From positions 1-64,000 of the forward strand of contig NZ_JAIQWW010000004.1 in the NCBI RefSeq assembly GCF_020164455.1: a stretch of DNA of 64,000 nucleotides. The letters run 5' to 3'. The translations under genes and the position numbers were made by a program. The stretch is from Phyllobacterium chamaecytisi. GTDB lineage: Bacteria > Pseudomonadota > Alphaproteobacteria > Rhizobiales > Rhizobiaceae. Positions 6,606-22,873 of this stretch are shown here, in pieces (the first letter of the stretch is position 1; each line of letters begins with the position of its first letter). Under the pieces are notes generated by a model that was not told the DNA's origin, made no database searches, and saw only the letters and a list, made by a program, of their open reading frames with translations.

Positions 6606-7427
6606 ATGAAACCATCACGCGATATAACCCGCTTGCTCGATATCATGGCTGCCTTGCGGACGCCGGTGACCGGATGCCCCTGGGATCTCGAACAGGATTT
6701 CAAATCCATCGCACCCTACACGCTCGAGGAGGCGTTCGAAGTGATCGATGCCATCGAGCGCAACGACATCGACGATCTGCGCGAGGAGCTCGGCGATCTG
6801 CTGCTGCAGGTTGTCTTCCACGCTCGCATGGCCGAAGAGCTCAAGGCGTTCGATTTTGGCGATGTCGTTCAGGCCATCACCCATAAGATGATCCGCCGTC
6901 ATCCGCACGTTTTCGGTGAAGAAGCTGCCCGCGGCGCAGGTATGGCCAAAGGCATGTGGGACAAGATCAAGGCCGAGGAAAAAGCTGAGCGCCGCGAACG
7001 CCGCGCCGTGCTCAATCCAGGTCTGGCCGAAGCCGACGGTTTTCTCGACGATATTCCCCATGGCTTCCCCGCGCTGATGCGGGCTTTGAAACTGCAGCAG
7101 AAAGCCGCCAAAGTCGGTTTTGACTGGTCAGAAGCTGCGCCGATCCTCGAGAAGATCGAAGAGGAGATCGGCGAGTTGAAGGATGCAATCGCCAGCGGCG
7201 ATCGACAGGATACCGAAGAAGAATATGGCGACCTGCTCTTTGCCCTCGTCAATCTCGGCCGTCACCTGAAGCTGGAGCCCGAAAGCGCCCTGCGCGGAAC
7301 GAATGAGAAGTTCCGCAAACGCTTCCACTACATCGAACGCAAACTGGCCGAACAGCAACAATCTCTCGACGCGGCGACGCTCGAGGAGATGGAAGCGCTG
7401 TGGCAGCAGGCCAAGACGGCGAAATAG
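6606..7427 (+). CDS. mazG: Nucleoside triphosphate pyrophosphohydrolase MazG
   Basis: The 273-residue protein has two tandem MazG domains. The first opens with the CPWDLEQDF segment and contains the metal-binding EExxE/ExxD pattern (EEAFEVIDAIE and REELGDLLLQVVFHARMAEE region); the second has KIEEEIGELKDAI and EEYGDLLFALVNLGRHL. MazG hydrolyses NTPs and dNTPs to the monophosphate and pyrophosphate, sanitising the pool and affecting ppGpp-linked responses. The ATG at 6606 gives the usual N-terminus; an upstream TTG at 6588 adds only six residues. Confidence 0.95.
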   Translation: MKPSRDITRLLDIMAALRTPVTGCPWDLEQDFKSIAPYTLEEAFEVIDAIERNDIDDLREELGDLLLQVVFHARMAEELKAFDFGDVVQAITHKMIRRHPHVFGEEAARGAGMAKGMWDKIKAEEKAERRERRAVLNPGLAEADGFLDDIPHGFPALMRALKLQQKAAKVGFDWSEAAPILEKIEEEIGELKDAIASGDRQDTEEEYGDLLFALVNLGRHLKLEPESALRGTNEKFRKRFHYIERKLAEQQQSLDAATLEEMEALWQQAKTAK

Positions 7428-7464
7428 CGCCCACTTCTCATGCATCATTGTTAGGCAGTTTCGA

Positions 7465-7488
7465 AATGCCGAATAAACATTGGGCATT
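7465..7488. repeat. Inverted repeat AATGCC-N12-GGCATT, candidate upstream activator site
   Basis: AATGCC at 7465-7470 and GGCATT at 7483-7488 form a perfect 6-bp dyad with an 18-bp centre spacing. Its centre is about 175 bp upstream of the predicted sigma-54 start site, within the range where enhancer-binding activators usually bind. It does not match the NtrC consensus (TGCACC-N5-GGTGCA). The rest of the 288-bp mazG-lipoprotein gap shows no gene. Confidence 0.35.
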
Positions 7489-7623
7489 CGATACATCCAA
7501 TCACAACTGTTGCTTGGTGATTTTGGCCGGGTAGCGTGAATTTAACGCGTCCAAATGGCCCGTCTCGGTTTAAATTAAGTATTCGGCTCCAGCGGAAGCA
7601 ACATTCCGGCCCAGTATGTTCAC

Positions 7624-7640
7624 TTGGCACGTTACTTGCT
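7624..7640 (+). promoter_or_regulatory. Sigma-54 (RpoN) promoter
   Basis: TTGGCACGTTACTTGCT matches the sigma-54 consensus TGGCACG-N4-TTGC at every conserved base, with the -24 GG (7626-7627) and -12 GC (7638-7639) exactly 10 bp apart between the dinucleotides. The predicted start is near 7651, giving a 65-nt leader before the ATG at 7716. It lies in an intergenic region and points at the gene. Transcription from such a promoter needs an AAA+ enhancer-binding protein. Confidence 0.85.
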
Positions 7641-7650
7641 CAGAAAGCGT

Positions 7651-7703
7651 GTGGTTCGATTAAACCACGAAACGCTACGACCAATATTTTCAGCAAATTT
7701 GCT
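7651..7703 (+). promoter_or_regulatory. Two dyads in the leader of the sigma-54 gene
   Basis: The predicted transcript begins with a hairpin, GTGGTT (7651-7656) and AACCAC (7663-7668) around a 6-nt loop. A second perfect palindrome, AGCAAATTTGCT (7692-7703), ends 2 nt before the GGAG ribosome site at 7706-7709. Either could affect mRNA stability or translation start. This is a sequence observation; no function is known. Confidence 0.4.
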
Positions 7704-7715
7704 CTGGAGTCATAG

Positions 7716-9455
7716 ATGAAAGAAATTTTTGAAACGGGCCGTCCGTCGGCTCGCGATACCGATCAGCCCTCCCCGATGCGACGGAGAATTTTGAAGGCCT
7801 GCGCCTATTTGCCGACAGCGCCGCTGCTGGCGATGCTGGGCGGATGTGATGGGGACAGCGGTGGCAGCGGTCTCTCAGGTGACACATCCACATTCACGCC
7901 CGAACAGCTAAAGGCAATAGAAACCGAGGTAACCAAGCGTCTGAACCTCAGAATTCCGCCGTTCAGCACAACAGACCCGGTGAAATTGCCGGAGAATAAA
8001 CTGGACACGCTGACGACCGGCTCGGTCGAGGTCACCCATGTTCCGGACAAAGCGCCGGCACCATCCAAGCAAAAGAAAGTCGGTATTTACAGCCTGCAAT
8101 ATAATGCATTTACGCAGATCTCCACACGCAAGAAGGCGCCAGTCGGAACACCGGAAGGCGATGCACTGGCCGCAACGCCCGGCAGCGTTGAATTCACTGT
8201 TGCCGATCCTAACGATGATACCCAGACAATTACGACAATCTATGAAGGGATCGAGCCTTATCTGAAGCGTGCTTTAGAAAATCGCTTCGCGCTTGTCTAC
8301 CGGGCGATGGTAACGGGCTTTCAAAAGCATTCGCCCAAGGAATTCGATGTCAGCTTCTTCACCGCGCCGGAATTCTACTGGAACGTGCCGTTTAGCGATT
8401 TCCTGAATGAGGCCGAACTGCAGGTGGCAGGAGACATATGCCAAGGCATCGTAACGAACAATGTGAAGACCCTCATATCCAAATTTCCGGCGAACCAGTA
8501 TGGCAACGTCGTCATGCTGCCGGGTACGATCGCCACGCTGAAAGCAACCACCGATGCTGTAAAATCAGATGGCACGCCGGTCGGCGATACCGTCTATATC
8601 GCTTCCAATCACCTTACCTGTACGCATAATCTGCCGCTCAACGACAGCAAATATCCGCGCCCCGCATATATGATATGGCCAAAACGGGCGGTATCGGGGA
8701 TTGATTATATCGATGAGTTTGTTAAGCGGAATAGATGTGGTGATGATGGCAACGAATTGATGCCGAACCCTGCCCATCCTGGTCTCCGTAATCCAATCAT
8801 GGATTGCCTGCTGAGCAAAAAGAGCGGACTAACGGTTCTGATCGAACATGTGTCTTCATCGCTGGCGCAATCATTCGATATAAACGGCAATCTGCTTTCC
8901 AGCAAATTCAACAACAGGATCGTTGAGGACTTGCCCTTCGGCGTCGATATCTGCCTGGATTATATCGAGGCAGACGTCCAGCGGGATCCGGTCCGCATGA
9001 GGCAACTTGATGAACAGAATTTCAAGCTGGATTTCCTGATTGCCGCAGGTATGGGTTTGTCTACATCCAACTATGCAAACACACCATTCATTCAATATGC
9101 GATACGCAATGAAGGGTATAGTGGCACGACCGGTAAGACCGAGGTCTGGAAACTGAATTGGACCAAAGGTACCGAAAGAAGTTTGGGAAAACTGAGCAAG
9201 GACGACGTGGCGCCGCTGGATGCAGCGTCGGCGAGTGACACGAAAGCGGGTGAGATCACCGTCGATCTGACTGCAGCATTCATAGCCCCGAAGGATGCTG
9301 ATACCACCGGTATTCCCAACATTCTCGATGAGATGAATGCCGGTATTGTCAAGGTCTGGCAGTTGGATGTCGATCAACCTGTGGAGGCGGTTGTCGCCAG
9401 CAAAACGGCGCCTGTTAGGGCCATAGCTGACCAGACTATACAGTTCATAAAATAG
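7716..9455 (+). CDS. Predicted Tat-exported lipoprotein, divergent nitrilase (carbon-nitrogen hydrolase) superfamily
   Basis: The 579-residue protein begins with a 20-residue hydrophilic extension, then RRRILK (22-27), close to the Tat motif RRxFLK, a short hydrophobic stretch, and a lipobox LGGC with Cys44 as the lipidation site. The body has pieces expected of the nitrilase fold in order: a strand before FFTAPEFYW with candidate catalytic Glu219, VVMLPGTIA (266-274), MIWPKRAVS with candidate Lys323, and FGVDICLDY with candidate nucleophile Cys413, followed by DFLIAAGMGL. Classical nitrilase-superfamily members are near 250-350 residues; here about 120 residues precede the domain and long inserts separate the blocks. 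Substrate is unknown; amide or nitrile hydrolysis in the periplasm is inference. It stands alone behind a sigma-54 promoter, with GGAG before the ATG at 7716, and base composition looks a little more AT-rich than its neighbours. Confidence 0.6.
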   Translation: MKEIFETGRPSARDTDQPSPMRRRILKACAYLPTAPLLAMLGGCDGDSGGSGLSGDTSTFTPEQLKAIETEVTKRLNLRIPPFSTTDPVKLPENKLDTLTTGSVEVTHVPDKAPAPSKQKKVGIYSLQYNAFTQISTRKKAPVGTPEGDALAATPGSVEFTVADPNDDTQTITTIYEGIEPYLKRALENRFALVYRAMVTGFQKHSPKEFDVSFFTAPEFYWNVPFSDFLNEAELQVAGDICQGIVTNNVKTLISKFPANQYGNVVMLPGTIATLKATTDAVKSDGTPVGDTVYIASNHLTCTHNLPLNDSKYPRPAYMIWPKRAVSGIDYIDEFVKRNRCGDDGNELMPNPAHPGLRNPIMDCLLSKKSGLTVLIEHVSSSLAQSFDINGNLLSSKFNNRIVEDLPFGVDICLDYIEADVQRDPVRMRQLDEQNFKLDFLIAAGMGLSTSNYANTPFIQYAIRNEGYSGTTGKTEVWKLNWTKGTERSLGKLSKDDVAPLDAASASDTKAGEITVDLTAAFIAPKDADTTGIPNILDEMNAGIVKVWQLDVDQPVEAVVASKTAPVRAIADQTIQFIK

Positions 9456-14170: not shown

Positions 14171-15532
14171 TCAGACTCCGAGGGACTTGAGCTTGCGGTG
14201 CAGTGCTGACCGTTCCATACCAACGAATTCGGCCGTGCGTGAGATGTTTCCACCAAAGCGATTGATCTGGGCGATCAGATATTCCTTCTCAAACCGCTCG
14301 CGTGCTTCGCGTAATGGCAGCGCCATGATGTGCTGGTCCGATTCCGTTGGTGGTTTTGGCAGTGTATCACCAATCTCGGCGGGTAGCAGATCAGCGGTAA
14401 TCACCGATTCAGGATCGTCGCCCCGGGCAAGAATGATCAGGCGCTCGATATTGTTGCGCAACTGACGAATGTTGCCCGGCCATGAATGCGACTGCAACAC
14501 TGCCATGGCATCGGGGCCAATCTTTCGCGGCTTGATACCCGCCTGATCGGCGATCTGCCCCATAAAGAACTCGACAAGCGCAGGAATATCATCCCGCCGG
14601 TCAGCCAATGGCGGGACGATGACCGGAACGACCGCGAGCCGATGAAACAGATCTTCGCGGAAACGTCCCTCGGCAATCATTGCCTCGAGGTTCTGTGCGG
14701 TCGAGGAAATAATACGAACATCGACCTTGATCCGCTTGGTGCCCCCGACCCGCTCGAACTGCTGATCCACCAAAACGCGAAGGATCTTGTTTTGGGTCTC
14801 TCGCGGCATATCGGCTATCTCGTTCAGGTAGAGAATGCCGCCATGCGCTTCTTCCAGGGCGCCGACCTTGCGCTCACCACCATCGGATTCGGTGCCAAAT
14901 AGTTCGACTTCCATTCGTTCCGGTGTGATCGTTGCCGCGTTCAGATTGACGAACGGCCCTTTGGACCGTGTCGACAGGGCATGGATGGCACGCGCGGTCA
15001 GTTCCTTGCCTGCACCGGAAGGGCCTGTGATCATGATGCGGCTGTTGGTTGGCGCAACCCGTTCAATGGTCTGGCGAAGATGGTTCATGGAGAGCGAACT
15101 GCCAAGAAGTTCGAAGCTTTCGCTCGAGCGCTTGCGCAAGTCGGAAACCTCGCGGCGCAGTTTCGATGTTTCCAAGGCGCGCTCGGCAATCAAGATCAAA
15201 CGGTCTGCCTTGAAAGGCTTCTCGATAAAATCATAAGCACCGCGGCGAATGGCCGAAACGGCCGTTTCGATATTGCCGTGGCCAGAAATCATAACAACCG
15301 GAATCTCCGGATGCCGCAGCTTGATCTCGTCCAGGAGCGCCAAGCCATCCAGGCGGCTGCCCTGCATCCAGATGTCGAGGAAAATCAGCCGGGGTATGCG
15401 GTCGTCTATCGAAGCGAGCGCGCTATCGGCGTCGGATGCAACACGGGCCTCATAGCCTTCGTCGCTGAGAATGCCAGCCACAAGCTCACGGATGTCGACC
15501 TCATCGTCGACCACAAGAATGTCAGATGCCAT
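14171..15532 (-). CDS. ntrX: Nitrogen regulation response regulator NtrX
   Basis: The 453-residue protein has an N-terminal receiver with acceptor Asp53 (FLDIWM), a central AAA+ domain with Walker A GPSGAGKE, and a C-terminal Fis-type helix-turn-helix (NISRTAEFVGMERSALHRKLK, shortened). Where NtrC has GAFTGA it reads FGTESDGGERKVGALEEA, so the sigma-54 contact loop is missing, as is usual in alphaproteobacterial NtrX; it likely regulates sigma-70 promoters. It starts 1 nt after ntrY, its cognate kinase. Downstream the usual neighbour is replaced by the MBL/lactonase pair. Confidence 0.97.
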   Translation of the reverse strand: MASDILVVDDEVDIRELVAGILSDEGYEARVASDADSALASIDDRIPRLIFLDIWMQGSRLDGLALLDEIKLRHPEIPVVMISGHGNIETAVSAIRRGAYDFIEKPFKADRLILIAERALETSKLRREVSDLRKRSSESFELLGSSLSMNHLRQTIERVAPTNSRIMITGPSGAGKELTARAIHALSTRSKGPFVNLNAATITPERMEVELFGTESDGGERKVGALEEAHGGILYLNEIADMPRETQNKILRVLVDQQFERVGGTKRIKVDVRIISSTAQNLEAMIAEGRFREDLFHRLAVVPVIVPPLADRRDDIPALVEFFMGQIADQAGIKPRKIGPDAMAVLQSHSWPGNIRQLRNNIERLIILARGDDPESVITADLLPAEIGDTLPKPPTESDQHIMALPLREARERFEKEYLIAQINRFGGNISRTAEFVGMERSALHRKLKSLGV

Positions 15533-21412: not shown

Positions 21413-22873
21413 TCAGCGTTCGCTCTTGGTGCTCTTGTAGATGTTGACGCCCAGTTCGCGGATTTTCTTACGCAATGTATTGCGATTGAGTCCCAGCAAT
21501 TCGGCAGCCTTGATCTGGTTCCCATGTGTCGCCGTCAGGCAAGAAAGGATAAGTGGATACTCCATCTCCTCCAGCACGCGCTGATAAAGACCGACGGGTG
21601 GTAGGTCGTCCCCATAGGAAAGGAAGTAGCGCTGCATGTTCAGTTCGACCGCCTGGCCGATAGTTACATCCTGGTCCGCCATCGAATTCGACGATGGCTC
21701 GGTTGGCCGCAGGTCGGCCTTGAGTTCCGCCTCGATGACGTCCGCATTGATCTCTTCCTGGGGATAGAGAGCGGCAAGACGGCGGACGAGGTTTTCCAGT
21801 TCGCGCACGTTACCTGCCCAAGGGTAACGCCGCATAAGATCGAGGCCATCAGCCATGATACGTTTTTCAGGCAGACCGTCTTTCGCTGCCATCTTGAAAA
21901 AATGGCGCACGAGATCCGGAATATCTTCGCCGCGTTCGCGTAAGGGTGGCAGGCGCAGCGGCACGACATTGAGACGATAGTACAGATCTTCGCGGAAAAG
22001 GCCTTGATTGATCAGGGTGCGCAGATCCTTATTGGTGGCAGCAACAATGCGCACGTCGGTCTTGATCGGTGTGCGCCCGCCGACGGTCATATATTCACCC
22101 TGCTGCAACACGCGCAAAAGCCGCGTTTGTGCTTCCATCGGCATATCGCCGATTTCGTCGAGGAACAGCGTGCCGCCATCCGCCTGTTCGAACCGTCCGC
22201 TCGACCGGTTCTGCGCGCCAGTGAAAGCCCCGCGCTCATGGCCGAACAATTCTGACTCGATAAGGTCACGCGGAATCGCTGCCATATTGATGGCGACGAA
22301 CGGACCTTTGCGCCGGCGGCCATATTCATGCAGAGCCTTCGCCACCAGCTCCTTGCCGGTACCGGACTCACCGGAAATCATCACCGTCAGATCGGTTTGC
22401 ATCATGCGCGCCAATACCCGATAAATGTCCTGCATCGCTGGCGAGCGGCCGACCAGCGGCATTGTATCGGGTTGCTCGTCGGCAGCCCATTTTTCCGGCT
22501 TTTTCTTCGGTTCCGAAAGTGCTCGACCAACGATGCTGACCAGTTCCGTCAGATCGAACGGTTTGGGCAAATATTCGTAGGCTCCCGCCTCAGAGGCACG
22601 AATGGCGGTCATGAAGGTGTTTTGCGCACTCATGACGATGACGGGCAGATCGGGTCGCGATTTTTTGATGCGTGGCAGGAGATCGAAAGCGTTTTCATCG
22701 GGCATCACCACATCGGTGATTACGAGATCGCCATCGCCCGCCGATATCCAGCGCCACAGGGTGGCTGCATTCGACGTTATGCGGACGTCATAACCTGCAC
22801 GGGAGAGCGCCTGATTGAGGACCGTTCTGATTGCTGCGTCGTCATCTGCGACGAGAATACTGCCCAAACTCAT
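21413..22873 (-). CDS. ntrC: Nitrogen regulation response regulator NtrC
   Basis: The 486-residue protein is a classical sigma-54 activator: receiver with acceptor Asp54 (VITDVVMP), AAA+ domain with Walker A GESGTGKE (168-175), the sigma-54 contact loop GAFTGA at 215-220, and a Fis-type helix-turn-helix near the C-terminus ([20 protein letters not shown]). Phosphorylated by NtrB, it activates nitrogen-scavenging genes such as glnII and amt. It follows ntrB with a 2-nt gap and belongs to the dusB-ntrB-ntrC operon. Confidence 0.98.

Follow-up and report, generated by a model that had tools for sequence, protein, structure and literature searches.

Positions 7625–7640 on the plus strand of the window, the whole 64,000-nucleotide stretch of Phyllobacterium chamaecytisi DNA analyzed here (positions 1 to 64,000 of contig NZ_JAIQWW010000004.1), read TGGCACGTTACTTGCT and are supported, by sequence and conservation, as a sigma-54 (RpoN) promoter. 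The site lies inside a gap of 288 nucleotides (nt) between the mazG stop codon (7425–7427) and the start codon at 7716, ending 75 nt before this ATG. Because hflX converges from the opposite side, the promoter serves one gene, which encodes a predicted exported lipoprotein with a putative nitrilase-type core. The elements of this locus and two regulator genes of the window are:

7428–7624, plus strand: intergenic stretch ahead of the promoter, the expected place for activator binding; no recognizable NtrC or DctD site
7625–7640, plus strand: predicted sigma-54 −24/−12 promoter with exact consensus (consensus match, conservation, shuffles)
7651–7668, plus strand: predicted transcript start (7651) and 5′-terminal hairpin GTGGTT-6-AACCAC (stem prediction)
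7706–7709, plus strand: Shine-Dalgarno sequence GGAG (read from sequence)
7716–9455, plus strand: gene for a 579-amino-acid protein, predicted to be exported and lipid-anchored, with a predicted nitrilase-superfamily core
7776–7847, plus strand: putative twin-arginine (Tat)-type lipoprotein signal MRRRILK...LGGC, residues 21–44 (conservation of RR22-23 and Cys44)
8370–8372, plus strand: predicted catalytic Glu219 in TAPEFYW (13 of 13 sequences)
8682–8684, plus strand: predicted catalytic Lys323 in WPKR (13 of 13 sequences)
8952–8954, plus strand: predicted nucleophile Cys413 in GVDICLDY (13 of 13 sequences)
21416–22873, minus strand: NtrC, with receiver, sigma-54 activation and Fis domains and a GAFTGA motif; likely activator (named from domains and position)
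14174–15532, minus strand: NtrX, activator-like and devoid of GAFTGA, not expected to activate sigma-54 (named from domains and the neighboring NtrY)

The site matches TGGCACG-N4-TTGCW at all 12 specified positions, with the GG-N10-GC core in its TGGCAC...TTGCW context. The original prediction, made from this DNA alone, had claimed a match at the conserved bases with exact GG-N10-GC spacing, in an intergenic position and aimed at one gene; the 12 matched positions and the mazG/hflX arrangement bear out both points, and its transcript start near 7651 agrees with the start predicted 12 nt beyond the C of the −12 element. No other stretch of the window matches TGGC-N7-TTGCW without mismatch, and 59 one-mismatch matches compare with 36.7 expected, a number without meaning by itself. 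Exact sites number 9 in the whole genome (6.36 Mb), against 2 for a backwards control pattern and ~1.8 expected from base composition; across 20 Phyllobacterium genomes the counts are 116 and 22. Shuffling the 200 nt upstream of the start codon 4000 times yielded no sequence equal to the score of the site, and a sigma-70 scan of 7428–7715 listed no plus-strand candidate.

The gene is present in 10 of the 20 Phyllobacterium genomes, with 12 copies in total. Sampling of the family places it in two of 297 genomes and one of 109 genera, and in a phylum sample of 398 genomes only the genome of the window has it. Named relatives amount to seven Phyllobacterium loci and one Acinetobacter locus; among 72,556 plasmid records, 24 carry a relative (23 Acinetobacter, 1 Burkholderia), to which a search at a laxer E-value added none, and viral contigs yielded five candidate stretches and no relative. 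GG-N10-GC is kept in the 11 leading Phyllobacterium copies, with 10 to 12 of the 12 consensus positions; in the 10 that were measured, the site begins 75 to 118 nt ahead of the start codon. The only promoterless copy stands second in a tandem pair of genome G009, directly behind a promoter-bearing one. Loss of the GG/GC elements in relatives that keep the gene, named beforehand as a finding that would count against the promoter, is thus not what these copies show.

Five copies (L005, L006, L007, L008, L013) are located elsewhere, two of them (G003, G013) one gene upstream of mazG; their upstream DNA is not alignable with the window, and the promoter element is still kept. The upstream region 7428–7624 can be aligned only between copies that lie at mazG. 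The unit directly follows mazG in six of 20 genomes, with hflX on its far side in five of these six (the window, G001, G002, G004 and G009; G019 was outside this check). In 11 of the 14 genomes lacking the unit at mazG, the hflX end lies within ~30 bases of mazG, the distance being ~175 bases in G006 and ~760 in G007 and G013, with another gene in between (read in G013 only). Promoter and gene are thus gained or lost as one. Three of the 12 Phyllobacterium copies are broken: a remnant that retains the promoter element (L018, G002), a frame break (L004:5001-6681, G009) and an early stop (L006:593-668, G003). By sequence, these point to fast gain and loss of the gene. Protein alignments excluded L018 and used L006 from after its in-frame stop and the first L004 copy up to the frame break.

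We surveyed 108 other exact sites of the genus, 8 in the same genome and 100 of 102 elsewhere, leaving out the six exact sites of the nitrilase-like family and two in G019 (C5:783881 and C5:1297414). Seventy of them are intergenic and followed by an open frame; the other 38 lie within an open frame or are followed by none that is clear. These 38 sites, together with the two control-pattern matches in the genome, would fit a chance consensus without function at 7625–7640. Such a reading is extremely improbable and was rejected on control-pattern counts, composition expectation and shuffles; the retention of the site in 11 of 12 copies, at the distances given above, and the lack of any other listed promoter candidate in the gap likewise speak against it.

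The genome encodes a single rpoN and two GAFTGA-bearing activators. Six stretches match PF00158: two proteins of the window read as NtrC and NtrX, one near dctA read as DctD, a protein of 591 amino acids and two proteins read as Clp ATPases; GAFTGA occurs in NtrC and DctD alone. A published study describes this motif as the sigma-54 contact loop and as absent from Caulobacter NtrC and NtrX (PMC10274813). NtrX and the 591-amino-acid protein (contig C18) were rejected as activators for want of GAFTGA, the remaining two being read as Clp ATPases. The 591-amino-acid protein (L102, C18:31327-31740) combines a long N-terminal part, an AAA+ domain of sigma-54-activator type and a helix-turn-helix-like C-terminal end. 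As an exact DNA pattern, GAFTGA has four matches in this genome, two of which fall in short frames (14 and 43 codons), and is confined to NtrC and DctD in the gene-bearing genomes G001, G013 and G018.

The genes most often found behind the surveyed exact sites encode a transporter read as nrtA (13), an alpha/beta-hydrolase lipoprotein (12), urtA (12), dctA (12), and frames read as glnII (6) and narK (3); for the transporter read as nrtA, the NCBIfam match is SsuA_fam, below cut-off, and the frames read as glnII and narK are cut short and below NCBIfam cut-offs. With urtA and the genes read as nrtA, narK and glnII, the present gene shares the exact TGGCACG-N4-TTGCW, the sigma factor and the available activators. 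Those genes encode uptake systems or a cytoplasmic enzyme, whereas here the promoter precedes one predicted exported lipoprotein, found in half of the genomes and lacking a recognized NtrC site. Elimination and the company at exact sites, rather than a binding site, thus favor NtrC, and the nitrogen link that had seemed tempting before is strengthened, since the only two GAFTGA activators of the genome are read as NtrC and DctD. A connection between such an enzyme and sigma-54 is not claimed to be new to print, as a paper on a nitrilase in nitrogen assimilation mentions sigma-54 once (PMC8567248).

Activation of the same promoter and enzyme by DctD, in response to plant C4-dicarboxylates, is unlikely. 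DctD is the only other GAFTGA protein found in the genome and dctA itself has an exact sigma-54 site, but dctA is preceded by two DctD-type sites, whereas the best match upstream of the present gene reaches 8 of 12 in the window (P 0.44) and 7 to 9 of 12 over the 10 copies scanned, as in shuffles. A weak NtrC-type site (8 of 10, P 0.08) was seen at the gene read as nrtA, and dyads in the upstream region are not conserved across copies.

The product itself would be a member of the nitrilase superfamily. Its predicted structure displays the alpha-beta-beta-alpha fold, and Glu219, Lys323 and Cys413 are invariant in all 13 sequences, down to ~25 percent identity. The single gene proposed originally stands, its designation as uncharacterized giving way to a predicted nitrilase-type fold with the corresponding triad residues. 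Among the Foldseek matches listed for the core model, vanin-1 (E 0.003) and a carbamoylase (0.1) rank first. Vanin-1, a pantetheinase ectoenzyme with ~10 percent identity, is a nitrilase-type amidase that acts outside the cell on a glycosylphosphatidylinositol lipid anchor; it is an animal protein with an extra domain. The structure matches also include the nitrilase-fold domain of the apolipoprotein N-acyltransferase Lnt, which faces the periplasm; Lnt is an integral membrane protein, whereas the present protein carries a putative lipoprotein signal. Compared with PF00795 members (Nit2, formamidase AmiF, beta-ureidopropionase, carbamoylase), the protein is undetected by the Pfam model, larger, and marked by its signal as probably exported and lipid-anchored; 90 residues separate Lys from Cys, fewer in typical members. 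A catalytically dead protein that retains the fold for binding or as a scaffold would accord with its distance from known branches, but is very unlikely given the invariance of the three residues at such divergence.

The signal argues for Tat export and lipidation. All 12 sequences possessing an N-terminus carry the twin-arginine pair RR22-23 and the lipobox residue Cys44, which supports the exported lipoprotein of the original prediction. On mobilizable Acinetobacter plasmids (L042, L240, L241, L243), tatA, tatB and tatC lie beside the relative of the enzyme, as if the cargo brought its own translocase; they are located ~0.8 kb downstream in four of the five records read (of 23), the fifth record ending earlier. 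In L009, TatA-, TatB- and TatC-like frames were judged by eye. A remote relative on a Burkholderia stagnalis plasmid (L043:4668-6044) keeps the triad residues and has no RR/lipobox leader, so that some members of the branch may be cytoplasmic.

A lone exported lipoprotein had been considered an unexpected RpoN target; it is not the only one. The same genome encodes a second lipoprotein with an exact sigma-54 promoter (C4:119777-119792), the platelet-activating-factor-acetylhydrolase-like alpha/beta hydrolase (L064:746-3274, complement), whose cluster comprises 12 exact sites in nine of the 20 genomes. Promoter, single gene and exported lipoprotein accordingly remain of the initial interpretation; the uniqueness of the exported member does not, and the identity of the product is revised. 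The two lipoproteins share the exact promoter, the lipoprotein signal and STF after the lipid cysteine, and differ in fold family (PF03403, E 1.1e-12) and in the twin-arginine motif, which is absent from 11 of 12 leaders of the hydrolase family (the lipobox pattern of this comparison missed L009, L143 and L160). An STF/TTF motif shortly after the lipid cysteine is found in 10 of 10 Phyllobacterium nitrilase-like members and 10 of 12 members of the hydrolase set, is missing from the single Acinetobacter leader picked up, and may be a sorting signal common to both families.

The predicted envelope location also leaves some room, at low probability, for an enzyme that serves the cell's own envelope or competition, by Lnt-like acyl transfer, as a wall or lipid amidase, or in defense and self-protection, rather than nitrogen supply, the sigma-54 site being real. 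Lnt among the structure matches, the patchy distribution with relatives on mobilizable plasmids, and a published survey connecting sigma-54 with the cell exterior in general (PMC3162934) are in line with such a role. Against it stand the genes found behind exact sites across the genus, which serve mainly the uptake and assimilation of nitrogen and C4 compounds.

We therefore favor, with a probability of roughly 0.6, that 7625–7640 is the −24/−12 promoter of a one-gene nitrogen-scavenging unit opened by NtrC, whose product is a Tat-exported, lipid-anchored nitrilase-type enzyme. RNA polymerase carrying the cell's single sigma-54 would sit at the site until phosphorylated NtrC opens it under nitrogen scarcity, giving a transcript from near 7651. 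The product would fold in the cytoplasm, leave via the Tat pathway, be lipidated at Cys44 and stay anchored in the envelope, where the Glu-Lys-Cys site may cleave an amide, a nitrile or a carbamoyl compound, making ammonia or another small nitrogen-containing molecule available for uptake.

Several observations weigh against this proposal. Upstream of the gene, the best NtrC-type match reaches 7 of 10 (shuffle P 0.57), and urtA has no such site either. The other six gene-bearing genomes show three to five candidate matches to the GAFTGA DNA pattern. All three copies scanned outside Phyllobacterium lack the promoter; nitrogen control is therefore not intrinsic to the enzyme, and the idea that RpoN control is ancient and common to the entire family was rejected. 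Concerning the fold, Pfam and NCBIfam give no nitrilase match for any of nine members tested, although a PF00795 match helps in detection and does not define the superfamily; an hhalign comparison of 13 members with 34 nitrilase domains yields a probability of 0.4 percent over 16 columns; and Foldseek returns no match at E ≤ 0.001. The remaining 48 rows listed for the core model are unrelated, the full model is led by unrelated folds with the nitrilase fold first at rank 16, and model confidence is moderate (predicted local distance difference test scores of 58 and 70).

The predicted leader begins with a stem at +1 to +3 in all 11 promoter-bearing copies despite their differing sequences. Single-copy shuffle P values range from 0.010 to 0.075, six of them combining to ~4e-5 (mononucleotide shuffles of related copies); the whole leader of the window copy is not unusually stable (z −1.04). 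Such a hairpin is not general to sigma-54 transcripts over the 108 other exact sites, being missing, for example, in seven of 12 urtA copies. As a guess, the stem might protect the mRNA. For the transporter read as nrtA (L037 plus 12 sites clustered with it), 12 of the 13 leaders open with the stem GTTCC...GGAAC where sigma-54 transcription is predicted to begin, and the thirteenth (L217) has a different stem. Leaders of the two lipoprotein families, compared in 15 pairs, gave P values of 0.000 to 0.58 with one pair below 0.005, which is only suggestive of a common leader.

We regard the nitrilase-type core, missed by the profile libraries used, as more interesting than the promoter and do not claim a place for it in a known branch. 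Tentatively, and at somewhat less than even odds, it may represent an unrecognized branch of the superfamily, Tat-exported and lipid-anchored, traveling in Phyllobacterium as an independent insert that brings along a sigma-54 promoter and on Acinetobacter plasmids with a dedicated tatABC, and digesting external organic nitrogen under NtrC control. The Tat link predicts folding of the enzyme before export, and the lone promoter becomes part of a physiological unit that is open to testing and for which the genome offers two candidate activators. Should the enzyme be confirmed, a nitrilase branch overlooked by these libraries would be placed and given a probable function, and nitrogen limitation in these plant-associated bacteria would set off extracytoplasmic hydrolysis of organic nitrogen, an activity that, to our knowledge, is not usually counted in the rhizobial NtrC regulon.
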